Of a stretch of 64,000 nt of DNA, positions 18,971-28,546 are shown in pieces. Made by a program: the position numbers and the translations under genes. Positions within the stretch are counted from its first letter, which is position 1; every line of letters starts with the position of its first letter. The DNA lies in NCBI RefSeq assembly GCF_020422885.1, contig NZ_CP084622.1:668001-732000 (forward strand). The letters run 5' to 3'. Source of the DNA: Mesobacillus sp. S13 (GTDB lineage Bacteria; Bacillota; Bacilli; Bacillales; Cytobacillaceae). The notes beneath the pieces were generated by a model that saw nothing but the letters and a program-made list of their open reading frames with translations, was not told where the DNA came from and searched no databases.

Positions 18971-20429
18971 AGTCAAGTCCTGGTTATTGTGTAAAATTAA
19001 CGGCAAGTAATCTCAACCAAACCCTTTCATTTTTTTGCGAAACTTCCATGGTTTCTTTTCTTCATCTTCGGGAAGGGATGTCAAATGGTTTTCAATTTGA
19101 TATCCCTTCCCGGAGATGTAATCATCCATGATGGAAGTGGAGCTGAAAATGCGGCTAATATACCCGACCCTTTAAAGATTTCCTCTTTGAGTAGTCTGAC
19201 ACATGGTAATGCATCAGAACAGCGCCAACCAAACGATACGCAGATTGGGAATTAGGGAAAATACGAATCACTCTTTCTCTTCTACGAACCTCCTGGTTCA
19301 GCCGTTCCAATGAGTTGGTGCTTCGGATATGGATCCTGATAGCTTCTGGGAAATTCATATATTGTATGGTATCTTCGAAACCTTCATCTAATATAGCAAG
19401 CGCTTTTCCAAACCTTGACTCATTACTAAAACGGTTCATCAATTCATCCTTGAACCGGCGTACATCTTCAATCGTAACTGCTTCAAATACTCGCTTAATC
19501 ATCATGCGGATTTCGGCTGAATCCTTTTTAGGCAATTTATCAATAATATTCCGTTTGAAATGGACATTGCATCTTTGCCAAGCAGTGCCAATAAATTCAC
19601 GTTGGATGGCTTTCTGTAGTCCTTGGTGGGCATCTGAAATTATAAGTTTTGGTGATTGGAGTCCGCGTGATTTAAGCTGTTGAAAAAAACGGCTCCAGCT
19701 TTCAAAACTTTCCGTATGGTCAACACTAAGGCCAAGGATTTCACGTGTATGATTCTCTGTAATGGCTGTTGCAATATAAACAGCCTTAGATACGACACGA
19801 TGGTGCTCTCGCACCTTTATATACATGGCATCTGCAAAAACGTAAGGGTAGTAGGTAGTATTCAAAGGTCGCCCAGCCCATTCATTTACAATGGGATCAA
19901 GCTTCTGTGTAAGGGATGAAACAAAGGACTTGGAAACATTCTTTCCACAAAGCTGTTCCACGATGTTGGTCACTTTCCGGGTCGAAACACCATTGACAAC
20001 CATCTCCAACATGGAGAGGACCATAGCTTGATCACACCGGGCATACTTTTCGAAAACGGTGGTTGAAAATTCTCCATTACGCGTCCGTGGAACCTTTAGG
20101 GCTATATTTCCAATACTCATCAACAGCTCACGTTCATAGTAACCGTTCCGGTAGTCACGACGTTCGACAGCACGTTCATAAGGTGCAGCCTTTAAATAGT
20201 CGTCTCTTTCCTTTTCCATAAACTCATTTAATACCAACACAACGGCAGATTTAATCACCATATCAAGATTGGAATTTACAATAGCTTCTTTTAAAACATC
20301 AACATTCAGGTTAAACTGTACTTGAGTCATTTATATTCCTCTTTTCACTTGTTTATCGTGGTTGAAAACAGTGTTGCCAAGAGTGAATAAAATGACTCTT
20401 TATTTTTACACAATTATACGGACTTAATC
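18971..20429 (-). mobile_element. IS256-family insertion sequence, copy 2
   Basis: The same 1459-bp element as copy 1, in the same orientation, with flanking 9-bp direct repeats GGGAATTAG (18962-18970 and 20430-20438). It is again inserted in an intergenic tandem array. Confidence 0.93.
19155..20330 (-). CDS. IS256 family transposase (copy 2)
   Basis: A 391-residue transposase identical in protein sequence to copy 1, with D167, D233 and E342 all present. The identity of the two elements suggests recent transposition or ongoing homogenisation. The transposase gene starts 99 bases inside the right inverted repeat. Confidence 0.95.
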   Translation of the reverse strand: MTQVQFNLNVDVLKEAIVNSNLDMVIKSAVVLVLNEFMEKERDDYLKAAPYERAVERRDYRNGYYERELLMSIGNIALKVPRTRNGEFSTTVFEKYARCDQAMVLSMLEMVVNGVSTRKVTNIVEQLCGKNVSKSFVSSLTQKLDPIVNEWAGRPLNTTYYPYVFADAMYIKVREHHRVVSKAVYIATAITENHTREILGLSVDHTESFESWSRFFQQLKSRGLQSPKLIISDAHQGLQKAIQREFIGTAWQRCNVHFKRNIIDKLPKKDSAEIRMMIKRVFEAVTIEDVRRFKDELMNRFSNESRFGKALAILDEGFEDTIQYMNFPEAIRIHIRSTNSLERLNQEVRRRERVIRIFPNSQSAYRLVGAVLMHYHVSDYSKRKSLKGRVY

Positions 20430-23549: not shown

Positions 23550-23804
23550 TTTTCTTCCTCCTTTTCATTTGCGACAAGCATATAAAATTAATTTTTTTTT
23601 AGCAAATATGAAAAATGGAGGAAACAGGAGATAAACAGAGATTGTCACAAATCATTTTTGTCTACGTTCGAGGATTTGCATACTCTCAATTTTTGGGGTA
23701 AGCAAAAATGACGTTTTTTAGTAGAAATAATTTGATTTATAAATCCTAATGAATTGTAAACAATGTACACAATAGGGTTCTAATGTAAATATAGAGTATA
23801 TGTA
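23550..23804. other. intergenic, no gene seen
   Basis: A/T-rich DNA upstream of the zinc-ribbon gene, holding its promoter and leader. There are no convincing frames or repeats. Confidence 0.5.
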
Positions 23805-23836
23805 AAAAATGCTTGGAGTTTCTCCAAGCATTTTTC
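23805..23836. terminator. bidirectional terminator beyond the sortase gene
   Basis: A perfect stem AATGCTTGGAG/CTCCAAGCATT flanked by A-run and T-run. It most likely ends the sortase transcript, which arrives from the right. Confidence 0.8.
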
Positions 23837-23918: not shown

Positions 23919-24551
23919 TCAGAGACGATCATTTTCATCCTCAACCAATTTGGTATAAATAACAGTCCGTTCAGCACGTTCGGTTGTTTTGGGATCAAAG
24001 TCGCCGCTGCAGGTAATGAGGTTGAGCGTGCTGGCAAATGAGAAGCCGAAGATATCCTCGATTGGGGCATCCAGACGCGGGAAGGTTTTTTGCTCGTAGA
24101 CTTCAAAGGTCAGTGTCTGGCCCTCGGCGTCCGTTACCATGATTTTGTCGCCATTTTTCAGTTTGTGAAGGTCATAGAAAACAGCAGGGCTTGTCAGGTC
24201 GTCTACATGTCCGGCGAGGACAGCATTTCCTGGAGCTCCTGGTAATGTGCCAGGCTCATACCAGCCAACATTGTCAGGGTTTTTCGGAACATCCATGCGA
24301 CCGTCCTTCAAGGTGCCTACTTGTTCAATCTGTGTTTTGACACTGATTGCAGGAATTTCAATTGTCACAGGAACGATCCCTGTCCGGTTATCTTTAATGA
24401 TTTCAACCTTTGATTCTGAGGAAGGGACAGATACAGAAGCCACTTGCTGCTCATTATTTGGAGCTTGAGTTTCTTCTGCCGTTTCAGCACCGAGTTGGCT
24501 TGAGCAGCCTGCCATTATCAGTGCAGCAACTATTATAAGAATTTTTTTCAA
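23919..24551 (-). CDS. class F sortase with lipoprotein signal
   Basis: A 210-residue sortase. The N-terminus MKKILIIVAALIMAGC is a lipoprotein signal peptide with Cys16 as lipid site, followed by a Ser/Gln/Glu-rich linker and a sortase barrel (about 55-205). The catalytic set is visible: His in NAVLAGHVDD (about 115), Cys in LNLITCSGDFD (about 181) and Arg in ERAERTVIYTKL (about 195). Class F enzymes cleave LPxTG-like signals and join the protein to the cell wall. TTG 24551 fits the GAGGTG ribosome site; GTG 24560 is an alternative. It lies 63 bases after a gene whose product ends in an MPKTG sorting signal, its obvious substrate. Confidence 0.88.
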   Translation of the reverse strand: MKKILIIVAALIMAGCSSQLGAETAEETQAPNNEQQVASVSVPSSESKVEIIKDNRTGIVPVTIEIPAISVKTQIEQVGTLKDGRMDVPKNPDNVGWYEPGTLPGAPGNAVLAGHVDDLTSPAVFYDLHKLKNGDKIMVTDAEGQTLTFEVYEQKTFPRLDAPIEDIFGFSFASTLNLITCSGDFDPKTTERAERTVIYTKLVEDENDRL

Positions 24552-24572
24552 ATGAATCACCTCAGTAAAAAG

Positions 24573-24614: not shown

Positions 24615-25961
24615 TTATTTTTTGTCAGCAGCGAGACGTCGAACAGTTACGAATCCTGCAGCGGCTATCGCCAGAATGGCTGAGATTAGGATCGCCTCAA
24701 ATGGAAGTCCTTGGGAAGCAGTGCCGCCCATTCCAGTCTTAGGCATTTCAGAAGGCATTTCTGCTTTGAACTTGTCAGGGAATTGGTCTACGATTGCTCC
24801 CGATAGTCCTTTTGATGTTCCAAACATATGTCCATAAGCTTCCCTAACTGAAGGGTAGGTGGTGGCGTAATCTCCAGCCGTGTAGGTATCAAAAGCTTTG
24901 ATCAACTGATCAACATGCATTTGCAAGCCTTCTGCCAGGGCATCTGCTTTCAGTCTGCCATCGGTTGCACTTTCCAGGAACTTCGCAAAGGAATCCTTGT
25001 ACTGGGAAAGTGCCGTCAGGGCTGCTTTTTTTGCGTCTTCATCGTTTGCGCCTGTCGCTTTTACATAATTGACAAAGTGTCCAATGTGGTCTGCCCACAT
25101 CTGTTTGAATTGCTCGCCAGCTTCTGCTCCATAAACTGAAGCAATAGCTGCGCTTAAGTCTTCGGTATTGGCTGAAAGAGCCGCGGCAGATGCCTCAAAA
25201 TCCTTTGAGCCGTCAATGCCGTTTTGCATCGCTGTCACGGCCAGGCCGGCATGCTCTGATAGCAAGTAGTTCAAGTCGGAGCGTAAATCAGCTGCAGGAG
25301 TGACTGCCTGATGGTTTTCAAATTTATCCGGGAATTGCATGACGATCGCATTGGAAAGTCCCTTGCTCACCATGTACATATGGTGGATCGCTTCACGTTC
25401 GTATTCATAGGCTTTTTCATAATCCCCTGCAACGTAGGCATTGAAGGCGCCGACCAGCTGGTCAACATGCATCTGCAGGCCTTCAGCCAGGGCATCGGCT
25501 TCCAGGCGTTTTTCGGTTGCGGTGGAAAGGAAGTTCGAGAAGTCTTCTTTATATTGTGCCAGTTCGTCTAGGGCCGCATTCTTTGCTGCTTCATCATTTC
25601 CTGCTGTTCCTTTGACATAGTCCACAAAGAAGCCAATGTGTGCGGACCACATATCCTTGAATTTTGCACCTGCTTCATCACCGTATACAGAGGCAATCGC
25701 TGCGCTTAAATCATCGGTGTTTCCTTGGAGGGCGGCGGCGGATTGTTCAAAGTCCTTCGCGCCATCGACGCCCTTACGCATCGTTTCAACCGCTAAATAA
25801 ACATGTTCACTAAGGAGCTGGTCAAGGGTAGCTCTTAAATCGACTGCTGAATCGGATACTGTGGGAACTGCGTGATCATGGGCTGCTGCTGAGTTTGCTG
25901 CAACAGGAAGTAAGAGGGATAGGCTGAGTGGCACGGCAATCGCTGCTTTTTTAAAATTCAT
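24615..25961 (-). CDS. cell-wall-anchored surface protein with duplicated His-containing helical domain
   Basis: A 448-residue protein with a signal peptide (1-27), two copies of a predicted all-helical domain (about 41-215 and 225-398, 184 residues apart) and a sorting signal. The sorting signal is MPKTG at 406-410, a hydrophobic stretch at 420-440 and the tail RRLAADKK. Histidines recur at matching places: SEH 53/237, HIG 108/292, QMHVDQL 165/349 and a His at 194/378. This suggests metal or heme-type binding, or a helical-bundle sensor. I do not recognise the family. The neighbouring class F sortase should anchor it. An ECF-type promoter at 25997-26028 lies at the right distance, and the same motif precedes the sigma-factor operon. 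Confidence 0.85.
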   Translation of the reverse strand: MNFKKAAIAVPLSLSLLLPVAANSAAAHDHAVPTVSDSAVDLRATLDQLLSEHVYLAVETMRKGVDGAKDFEQSAAALQGNTDDLSAAIASVYGDEAGAKFKDMWSAHIGFFVDYVKGTAGNDEAAKNAALDELAQYKEDFSNFLSTATEKRLEADALAEGLQMHVDQLVGAFNAYVAGDYEKAYEYEREAIHHMYMVSKGLSNAIVMQFPDKFENHQAVTPAADLRSDLNYLLSEHAGLAVTAMQNGIDGSKDFEASAAALSANTEDLSAAIASVYGAEAGEQFKQMWADHIGHFVNYVKATGANDEDAKKAALTALSQYKDSFAKFLESATDGRLKADALAEGLQMHVDQLIKAFDTYTAGDYATTYPSVREAYGHMFGTSKGLSGAIVDQFPDKFKAEMPSEMPKTGMGGTASQGLPFEAILISAILAIAAAGFVTVRRLAADKK

Positions 25962-25996: not shown

Positions 25997-26028
25997 GCTA
26001 ACGGGAGAAATTTGAAGATGGATCACTT
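25997..26028 (-). promoter_or_regulatory. predicted ECF-type promoter of the surface-protein/sortase operon
   Basis: On the minus strand, AAGTGATC (26028-26021), a 17-base spacer and CGTTAGC (26003-25997) followed by ATAG. The same two blocks with the same spacing lie upstream of the ECF sigma gene. The -10 is about 36 bases before the start codon, as expected. Confidence 0.7.
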
Positions 26029-26058
26029 TTTTTTGAAAAAATTTAAAAAAAATGAAAA

Positions 26059-26094
26059 AAACCTGATCCGGAGTTCCAAAACCGGGTCAGGTTC
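26059..26094 (-). terminator. terminator after the anti-sigma gene
   Basis: Stem AACCTGACCCGG/CCGGATCAGGTT followed on the minus strand by a long T-run. It separates the sigma operon from the surface-protein operon. Confidence 0.85.
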
Positions 26095-26104
26095 AAATTC
26101 ATTT

Positions 26105-26908
26105 TTATAACTGTGAAGCTAAAACAACATCACCCTTTGGCTGTTTGCTGTCAGGGGTCGGTTCGAGTGTAACTGCGATGGTGGTCCAGTTGTGCTCGCC
26201 TTCGTAATTAACCGAGTATGTGACGGCACCATTGCCTTCAGAGTTGGTACGGAAAGTTCCTGCCCTGAACTTTTCGCCAGCTTCATCAATCAGCCAAACC
26301 TGGTAGGCTTCATTGCCGGTTAATGGCTTGAGGTTGCTTGCCTGGACAACTAGGGCCATTCCTTCTTCCTTTTTGATCATGGCTGCTTCAGCATTTCCTT
26401 CATATCCTTCCGAAACTGCCAATTGAACCTGCTTTACGATTTCATCCGTTCCTTCCCGGGATGGTTCGCTGATTTCCTGGCCATTTTGGCTTAAATAAAA
26501 GTATGCGTTAGCGGATAAGGAGAGAAGCAATGACGCAGCCAGAAGGGGTTGAAGCCAACTGTAATTTCGGCGTTTGGTTTCCTTCATTTCTGCTGGTTTT
26601 TTCACTTCCTCAGTTTTTGCTGGTTTTTCAACTTCCTCAGTATCTGCTGGCTTCTCAAATTTCTCAGCTTGCTCAGCTTGCTCTTTCTCTTCAAAAACAG
26701 AAGCAAGGATTCGGTCCTTCATTCCTTTATTCGGCTCGACCAATTCTGCTGAAAAAGGAAGGTCAGCTGTCAGCATAGTCAGTTCCTCCAGCTCTTCACG
26801 GCAATCTTTGCAGGTGGCTAAATGGTTCTCAAATAATGATTTTTCCTCATCAGTCAGTGTGTTGTTAAAATAATCCAGTAAACATTCACATGCTTTATGA
26901 TCGGTCAT
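26105..26908 (-). CDS. RskA-type anti-sigma factor
   Basis: A 267-residue single-pass membrane protein. The N-terminal zinc-finger anti-sigma domain contains HLATCKDCREELEEL (about 29-43, the H-x3-C-x2-C motif). A repetitive Lys/Glu/Pro linker follows at about 79-113, then one membrane helix at about 118-138. The extracytoplasmic RskA domain (about 165-265) contains LKPLTGNEAYQVWLIDEAGEKFRAGTF. It should hold the overlapping ECF sigma factor inactive until a signal outside the membrane releases it. The start overlaps the sigma stop by 14 bases, which shows translational coupling. The linker has near-repeats of KPAxTEEV. Confidence 0.9.
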   Translation of the reverse strand: MTDHKACECLLDYFNNTLTDEEKSLFENHLATCKDCREELEELTMLTADLPFSAELVEPNKGMKDRILASVFEEKEQAEQAEKFEKPADTEEVEKPAKTEEVKKPAEMKETKRRNYSWLQPLLAASLLLSLSANAYFYLSQNGQEISEPSREGTDEIVKQVQLAVSEGYEGNAEAAMIKKEEGMALVVQASNLKPLTGNEAYQVWLIDEAGEKFRAGTFRTNSEGNGAVTYSVNYEGEHNWTTIAVTLEPTPDSKQPKGDVVLASQL

Positions 26909-27467
26909 AGCTATGATCCCTCCCTTCCCTGATACCGCCTATTGTTTTATGGAGATGCTTAAGAGCCAATCGTATTCGTCCTTTAACCGTCCCCAGAGGG
27001 ATCTGAAATGTATCTGCAATTTTTTGCTGTGAGAGTCCTTTAAAATAAAAAAGTTCAACAATTTGCTGCTGCTCTTCTGCCAGTTGATTGATGGCCACCC
27101 TGATCTCACTTCGTTTTTCTTTCCACTCTGCCACTTCTTCCACTGAAGGTTCAGTCGATTTCAATGCATCGCGGTCCTCAAGCTCGACATGGTTCTCATC
27201 CTTTTTACGCAGACAGTCGATTGCAGCATATCTGGTAACGGTCAATATCCATGAAGAAAATTTCCCTTTCGTTTCATCATACATTCCCGGTTTCGTCCAC
27301 AGTTTAAGGAAAACATCCTGTACGATTTCCTCTGACAAATCACGCCTGCCAGTCATCCTGTATGCGAACGAAAAGAGAAGCTTTTCATATCGGTCATATA
27401 AGAGTTCAAGTGCCCGTTTATCTTTTGCCTGCAAACGTGCATAAAGCTCGATATCATGTTCGCTCAT
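26895..27467 (-). CDS. ECF sigma factor (SigK/RpoE type, RskA partner)
   Basis: A 190-residue sigma-70 family factor. Region 2 (about 20-85) contains YDRYEKLLFSFAYRMTGRRDLSEEIVQDVFLKLW, and region 4 (about 125-175) contains FYFKGLSQQKIADTFQIPLGTVKGRIRLALKHL. It has no region 1 or 3, so it is a Group 4 factor. AAGGAG is six bases before the ATG at 27467. It directs RNA polymerase to a small regulon. The shared motif AAGTGATC-N17-CGTTAGC found before this gene and before the surface-protein gene is its most likely promoter. Confidence 0.92.
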   Translation of the reverse strand: MSEHDIELYARLQAKDKRALELLYDRYEKLLFSFAYRMTGRRDLSEEIVQDVFLKLWTKPGMYDETKGKFSSWILTVTRYAAIDCLRKKDENHVELEDRDALKSTEPSVEEVAEWKEKRSEIRVAINQLAEEQQQIVELFYFKGLSQQKIADTFQIPLGTVKGRIRLALKHLHKTIGGIREGRDHSYDRS

Positions 27468-27540
27468 CACTTTCTCCTTCTATATGTATTTTGTAACATC
27501 ATAACCTATTTAGTTAAAGATGTAATTTTAGAGTCTGCTA

Positions 27541-27572
27541 AGCTAACGATTTAAAAAGGAATAAAGATCACT
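27541..27572 (-). promoter_or_regulatory. predicted autoregulated ECF promoter of the sigma operon
   Basis: AAGTGATC (27572-27565), a 17-base spacer and CGTTAGC (27547-27541) followed by TTAG. It differs from the surface-protein promoter only in the spacer and one base after the -10. It lies 74 bases before the sigma start codon. Confidence 0.7.
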
Positions 27573-27685
27573 TATTAAAACAGGAATTATGCCTTTTTAT
27601 ATAGAAATTACTGACAAACATTAGCAAAAAATGACCGGATTGCACCATGGAATCTTGATAGGATGATTTTAAGGGAGTGAGCTGT

Positions 27686-28546
27686 ATGGCGTGGATTGAA
27701 TCCTTGCAGAGGGCAATTGACTATATAGAGGAGCATTTACTTGACGATATGACAGTGGAGGACATTGCGAAAAAGGCGAGTTCATCTCCGTTTCATTTTC
27801 AACGGACATTTGCCATTCTAACGGACATATCTGTTGGCGAGTACATTAGACGGAGGCGTTTGTCGCTGGCAGCGGGTGAATTATGCAACAGCGATGCAAA
27901 AGTCATTGACCTTGCGCTGAAATATGGCTACGACACTCCTGAAGCATTTACGAAAGCTTTTCGCAGGCAGCATGGCATTTCTCCAACTGAAGCACGGAAG
28001 TACACCGGAAAGCTGAAATCATACAGCCGCCTGGGAATCCAGGTGAGTTTGAAGGGAGCGGAACCGATGCAATACAAAGTGGTAGAGCAAGATGGTTTTG
28101 AAGTGATGGGTATTAAGCAGGGATTTTCTTATGGTAATGGGGAGAATCTGGATGGTATTCCTAAGATGTGGGATCAGGTGAATCAGGATGGTACTTGTGA
28201 TTTTTTGATCTGTAAAAACAATGGCCCTTTAAAAGGAGTTCTTGGTGTATGTGTGGACCAAGGCAAGATCCGGGAAAAGCAGATGGATTATTGGGTTGCG
28301 GCAGCATATAATGGGGAAACACCGGATGGCTATCTGAAAATGGAAATCCCTGCGTCCAAGTGGGCGATCTTTGAAGTTCACGGTCCAATGCCTCATGCCA
28401 TGCAAAAGGTATGGAAGCAAATCTTTACAGAATGGTTTCCCGCCAGCGGATTCCAACATGCTGGGACACCAGAGCTGGAGGTTTATCCAGCAGGGGATTC
28501 AGCTGACCCAGATTATTATTCTGAAGTATGGATACCGGTTAAGTAA
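27686..28546 (+). CDS. AraC family regulator with GyrI-like ligand domain
   Basis: A 286-residue regulator. The N-terminal AraC/XylS DNA-binding domain (about 5-105) has two helix-turn-helix units, including TVEDIAKKASSSPFHFQRTFAILT and VIDLALKYGYDTPEAFTKAFRRQHGISPTEARKY. The C-terminal GyrI-like/SOUL-type effector domain (about 125-285) contains VMGIKQGFSYG and PASKWAIFEVHGPMP. This matches the Rob/BmrR-like ligand-binding fold for lipophilic compounds. AAGGGAG precedes the ATG at 27686. It is a single gene, and its regulated target is not obvious locally. Confidence 0.9.
   Translation: MAWIESLQRAIDYIEEHLLDDMTVEDIAKKASSSPFHFQRTFAILTDISVGEYIRRRRLSLAAGELCNSDAKVIDLALKYGYDTPEAFTKAFRRQHGISPTEARKYTGKLKSYSRLGIQVSLKGAEPMQYKVVEQDGFEVMGIKQGFSYGNGENLDGIPKMWDQVNQDGTCDFLICKNNGPLKGVLGVCVDQGKIREKQMDYWVAAAYNGETPDGYLKMEIPASKWAIFEVHGPMPHAMQKVWKQIFTEWFPASGFQHAGTPELEVYPAGDSADPDYYSEVWIPVK

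Follow-up and report, generated by a model that had tools for sequence, protein, structure and literature searches.

The described systems against which the locus reported here can be set are two pairs of ECF sigma factor and anti-sigma factor and one type of wall-anchoring machinery, the class F sortase with its sorted surface protein. In the ECF11 pair RpoE-ChrR, known from Rhodobacter sphaeroides and, as RpoE2-ChrR, from Shewanella, ChrR is described as a cytoplasmic protein (PMC6852236), and the promoters of Shewanella RpoE2 are given as TGATCC-N16-CGTA, with starts mapped for two genes (PMC4336711). The ECF19 pair SigK-RskA of Mycobacterium tuberculosis has a regulon that includes the exported proteins MPT70 and MPT83 (PMC7509140), and its RskA does not depend on a zinc motif (PMC7406223). 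No paper on the sigma/sortase module reported here was found in the open-access literature searched.

Here we examine a locus of Mesobacillus sp. S13 in which a sigma/anti-sigma operon and a surface-protein/sortase operon are each preceded by the same two-box sequence, within a window of 64,000 nucleotides that forms part of a complete 4.8 Mb genome. The explanation that we consider very probable is a self-contained module, in which an ECF sigma factor held by its anti-sigma factor would, once released, activate both its own operon and the wall-protein/sortase operon at TGATC(C/T)-N16-CGTTAGC.

Two operons and a shared two-box site

The sigma factor, 191 aa in length, carries sigma regions 2 and 4 only, both above their Pfam cut-offs, and has an adjacent anti-sigma gene, as in ECF group IV; the two genes overlap. 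The sigma factor may already carry an ECF group number. At its N-terminus the anti-sigma factor has a zinc finger (HLATCKDC), at about residues 122-140 there is a single hydrophobic stretch, and its C-terminal domain is RskA (58.7 bits against a Pfam cut-off of 29.4). Divergent from the sigma gene, at 27677-28546 on the plus strand, lies an AraC-type regulator whose ligand domain is GyrI-like/Cass2, and a similar-looking gene stands there in four congeners. The surface protein, 448 aa and devoid of Cys, ends as sortase-anchored proteins do in MPKTG, a helix at 421-446 and RRLAADKK, the motif being MPxTG rather than LPxTG, and by analogy the neighbouring sortase presumably anchors it to the wall. 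Because a strong hairpin separates the two operons and another follows the sortase gene (Table 1), the surface-protein/sortase operon should need a promoter of its own; the former hairpin was missed by a pattern scan that covered loops of up to 8 only. Further along the minus strand, at 19155-20330, is a transposase-like gene that we take to be IS256-like.

Table 1. Features of the two operons, in window coordinates.
Feature	Position	Strand	Basis
ECF sigma factor gene	26895..27470	-	Pfam Sigma70_r2 and Sigma70_r4_2
Anti-sigma factor gene	26105..26908	-	Pfam zf-HC2 and RskA_C
Promoter-like site, sigma operon: AAGTGATCT-N16-CGTTAGC	27542..27573	-	window and genome matches; conserved upstream of sigma in relatives
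Further promoter-like site before sigma, of housekeeping type: ATTACA-N17-TATGAT	27498..27526	-	9/12 consensus bases
Terminator-like hairpin and T run after anti-sigma gene	26059..26094	-	-17.2 kcal/mol, z -3.3
Promoter-like site, surface-protein operon: AAGTGATCC-N16-CGTTAGC	25997..26028	-	window and genome matches; conserved in relatives
Surface protein gene	24615..25961	-	signal peptide, two six-helix domains, MPKTG, hydrophobic helix, positive tail
Class F-like sortase gene	23919..24560	-	Pfam Sortase 86.7 bits (cut-off 26.6)
Terminator-like hairpin and T run after sortase gene	23804..23836	-	-19.5 kcal/mol, z -8.1

The preliminary description had placed a repeated motif at equal spacing before the sigma and surface-protein genes, and AAGTGATC-N17-CGTTAGC does occur twice in the window, both times on the minus strand and with identical spacing, with no match across 100 dinucleotide shuffles of the window. 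One copy was correctly located at 25997-26028; the other, given as 27541-27572, was one base low and lies at 27542-27573. Its finer claims were confirmed: CGTTAGC is followed by ATAG at one copy and TTAG at the other, the spacers are unlike beyond base composition when judged by eye, and the start codons lie at suitable distances past the end of CGTTAGC, with the surface gene's ATG (25961) at 35 nt and, for the sigma gene, the GTG (27470) at 71 nt or the next ATG at 74 nt. The boxes are better written as TGATC(C/T)-N16-CGTTAGC, with TGATCC at the surface-gene site and TGATCT at the sigma site; since this is the layout of published RpoE/ChrR-type promoters, the presumed promoter type is not new.

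Over the 4.8 Mb genome, GTGATCYN16CGTTAGC finds two perfect matches, which are the two window sites. At one mismatch there is no match and at two there are 19; a reversed control pattern gives 52 matches at up to two mismatches. A looser form, RTGATCN{16,18}CGTTAKC, has four matches in the same genome, two of them with a different gap; it proved not to be discriminating, with matches in 78 of 121 genomes, and was dropped in favour of the fixed-gap form. The scan that located the housekeeping-type site found eight such sites against a shuffle mean of 5.3 and adds little alone. TAT[AG]AT, on the other hand, stands 15-90 nt upstream of sigma in 44 of 93 regions from relatives against 10.5 expected, which suggests that the sigma gene has a second, housekeeping promoter.

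A structural model of the surface protein (pLDDT 84.2, pTM 0.80) places six-helix domains at 38-209 and 222-393, and in a comparison with solved structures no fold stands out. Over 29 sequences from both subfamilies, no variation is seen at His53, His108, His165, His237, His292 and His349, or at Glu52, Met61, Asn81 and Met195. In each of the twelve helices one selected residue (His, Asn, Tyr or His/Met) sits no more than one position from the helix midpoint; the set was picked after inspection and positioned without model coordinates, and its residues are placed as one buried layer would place them. Binding of a metal or another cofactor is a lead rather than a result.

Site and gene pairing among relatives

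Among 299 genomes of the order, with cut-offs set by hand (E <= 1e-40 for sigma, E <= 1e-20 for the surface protein), the sigma factor is found in 117 and the surface protein in 119. Both occur together in 117, the surface protein only in two (G115 and G221), sigma only in none and neither in 180 (p=1.8e-82; genomes of the same genus are not independent and p-values are overstated, though the pattern spans many genera). Counted by genus, sigma occurs in 43 of 117 and the surface protein in 44 of 117. One of the two exceptions, G115, has the surface gene and a perfect motif without a sigma factor at E <= 1e-40. The window's own genus is patchy, with a close sigma factor (E < 1e-100) in 5 of the 21 genomes searched, the window's included; among the named loci the closest surface protein, 93% identical in a comparison that may omit the window's own genome, belongs to Mesobacillus selenatarsenatis. 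In three congeners (L061, L062 and L064) the anti-sigma gene is separated from the surface gene by inserted genes of opposite orientation, among them a distant relative of ECF sigma factors, and the surface-gene site is kept.

Absence of the motif from orthologous loci had been named beforehand as the outcome that would count against a shared promoter; upstream of the surface gene the motif is present in many genera. In the best 80 of 391 relatives, both boxes are perfect in 52 (three with one extra spacer base) against 1 of 400 shuffled regions, TGATC[CT]N16CG[TA][TA][AT] stands upstream in 70, and with the three extra-base sites about 73 are recognisable. Of 73 sites with up to two mismatches, 68 have a gap of 16 bases, and the extended consensus runs from an A tract through AGTGATCCA to CGTTAGCT and TGAAA. 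The motif is also kept at surface genes remote from sigma (for example L161 and L280). Seven of the 80 loci, judged from the table, are without a site, five in Exiguobacterium and two in Planococcus; sigma is present in all 45 genomes checked from the 80 loci, the seven site-less ones included, and in the two Planococcus genomes another surface-gene paralogue is divergent from sigma, with one site per side. Upstream of sigma itself, 93 distinct regions yield 20 perfect sites. Allowing one mismatch brings the count to 43 (0.2 expected) and allowing two brings it to 64 (7.9 expected), which leaves 29 regions with no site at up to two mismatches. Since perfect sites are found in 20 of 93 sigma regions against 52 of 80 surface-gene loci (p=7e-9), the site of sigma stands further from the consensus than that of its target.

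The exact motif RTGATCCN16CGTTAKC occurs in 79 of the 299 genomes, 70 of them sigma-positive (p=1.3e-26), so that it is absent from 47 of 117 sigma-positive genomes and present in 9 of 182 sigma-negative ones; the reversed pattern occurs in 9 sigma-positive and 22 sigma-negative genomes, 31 in all. Positions were counted for 144 listed matches, leaving out six in sigma-negative genomes. Twenty-two stand 30-131 nt upstream of the matched sigma start, another 31 lie within 6 kb of sigma and are all (31/31) on its strand, 90 lie elsewhere and one is in G118. In this sigma-negative genome, the one read among the nine that carry the motif, a perfect site (L191) precedes a short frame with similarity to the beginning of the surface protein alone, which looks like decay following loss of the regulator.

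Sixty distant matches (59 of the 90, plus that in G118) were read for their first downstream gene, domain names being tested on one example per type and the rest assigned by eye or from BLAST comparison with the proteins of the window. In 32 of them this gene encodes a surface protein (25, one being the G118 remnant) or a class F-like sortase alone (7); the others are DoxX (5), long secreted repeat proteins (5), YtkA-like proteins (2), CHRD with MPQTG (2), CopC-CopD followed by DUF1775 (1), PepSY (1), a molybdopterin oxidoreductase (1) and arrays of tiny-peptide genes (6), with four matches inside or against other genes and one unassigned. The common theme of these predicted targets is surface and secretion. 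Three of the peptide loci (L142, L149 and L188) have the exact motif upstream of tandem genes for peptides of 29-30 aa with strong ribosome sites, in 7, 4 and 2 copies as seen, and ABC transporter genes downstream; in L145, L146 and L147 the motif is followed by 5, 7 and 3 tandem genes for amphipathic peptides of 21 aa and then by a dehydrogenase-like gene. In the surface proteins at L078 2133-3821 and L080 6615-8312 the sorting tail is replaced by another C-terminus, which in L080 is a Cu_amine_oxidN1 domain. Copper was considered as a signal because CopC/CopD, DUF1775, YtkA and Cu_amine_oxidN1 occur among targets or target variants, and is kept as a lead because each such domain occurs in one or two loci. 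The view of the display module as a dedicated target needs qualifying: further genes for surface and secreted proteins stand behind the motif in relatives, and in the window's own genome a second surface (MPETG)/sortase pair, about 60% identical (L272 4098-6278, about G000:C1:581097-583277), has no TGATCC-N16-CGTTA site upstream.

The probable reader of the sites and the proposed circuit

The region-4 recognition helix of the sigma factor, IPLGTVKGRIRLALKHL, keeps 13-17 of its 17 positions in 20 aligned relatives and shares 12 of 17 with R. sphaeroides RpoE and 8 of 17 with M. tuberculosis SigK. An RpoE-like helix, taken with the form of RpoE2 promoters, ties the motif to this sigma factor independently of position, and we infer that the window's sigma reads the two sites.

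Some ECF factors share promoters, and 19 further sequences in the genome score as sigma relatives, from which it might be argued that the sites are promoters of another ECF sigma factor and that the neighbouring one is not their reader; yet in all 19 the recognition helix matches at no more than 9 of 17 positions, and over genomes the motif tracks the window's sigma, so that we hold this reading to be highly improbable. Much the same low standing is given to a shared activator or repressor site served by a housekeeping promoter. Two boxes, a fixed gap (the 16 bases noted above), promoter distance and the layout of mapped ECF promoters all speak against it, despite the frequency of housekeeping-like TAT[AG]AT near the sigma gene. 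Chance matching or recent local duplication has in its favour that there are two copies only in the genome, and is next to negligible given that the spacers differ, that the shuffles returned nothing and that the pair of sites is kept in relatives whose sigma factors are about 47-63% identical, a conservation that already contradicts it.

If the neighbouring sigma does drive both operons, a membrane anti-sigma factor, with its zinc-finger part inside and its RskA-type domain outside, would keep the ECF sigma factor inactive until a signal outside the membrane set it free to direct RNA polymerase to TGATC(C/T)-N16-CGTTAGC promoters. The site of its own operon, with a slightly weaker TGATCT box, would provide positive feedback, the second site would lead to transcription of the operon for the wall-anchored helical surface protein and sortase, and the sortase would link that protein to the wall; the basal level probably comes from a promoter of housekeeping type that lies closer to the sigma gene. 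The sites, their rarity and conservation, the gene pairing, the inter-operon terminator and the recognition-helix match are read directly from the sequence, and we infer sigma release, the signal step and anchoring from the families named. The original suggestion that the sigma factor drives itself and a wall display module gains support from motif conservation and from co-occurrence in 117 genomes.

More speculative, and in our judgement rather unlikely as a whole, is an undescribed order-wide Bacillales ECF regulon with an obligate sigma/wall-protein core, a new six-helix domain and a buried His/Met/Glu/Asn metal or cofactor layer, with wider targets in relatives (DoxX, YtkA, CopC/CopD and DUF1775, CHRD, and tandem tiny peptides, some of them by ABC exporters), in which the wall protein might feed back on the anti-sigma factor as part of the sensor. 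For a sigma/anti-sigma pair present in 117 of 299 genomes, the analysis offers a putative promoter code, TGATCC-N16-CGTTAGC, together with a set of candidate targets, and the near-perfect pairing of one sigma factor with one surface family makes both testable. A genome in which two sites were found is a clean case for asking what a Gram-positive membrane anti-sigma factor of the RskA type responds to, and why a wall protein should need a sigma factor to itself.

Comparison with described systems

With class F sortase systems the locus shares the sortase family and a sorting-type tail on the neighbouring protein. The earlier assignment to class F stands insofar as this is the best-scoring subclass model (NCBIfam), and is tempered by a score of 140.2 bits that falls under the curated cut-off of 166; in relatives, MPxTG is found in 67 of 80 loci, with no xPxTG in 13, and the sortase lies directly downstream of the surface gene in 48 of 80. 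The likeness to ECF11 RpoE-ChrR extends to the nearest PDB sigma factor by sequence (2q1z, E 1e-19), a like promoter, TGATCC-N16-CGT (PMC4336711), and a zinc-ligand N-terminus in both anti-sigma factors. ChrR, however, is cytoplasmic (PMC6852236), whereas the window's anti-sigma factor contains an RskA domain as well as a hydrophobic stretch and falls short of the NCBIfam ChrR model (23.9 against 124.5 bits); the predicted targets here are surface proteins, and those listed there are photolyase, fatty-acid and peroxidase genes (PMC4336711). Set against SigK-RskA of M. tuberculosis, the window's sigma factor scores under the SigK model cut-off (115.1 against 226 bits), and its anti-sigma factor has a zinc-finger N-terminus whereas RskA of M. 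tuberculosis does not depend on a zinc motif (PMC7406223). SigK is nevertheless second in the PDB list (4nqw), the RskA C-terminal domain is likewise present in the window's anti-sigma factor, and exported proteins belong to the SigK regulon (PMC7509140) as they do to the predicted targets here.
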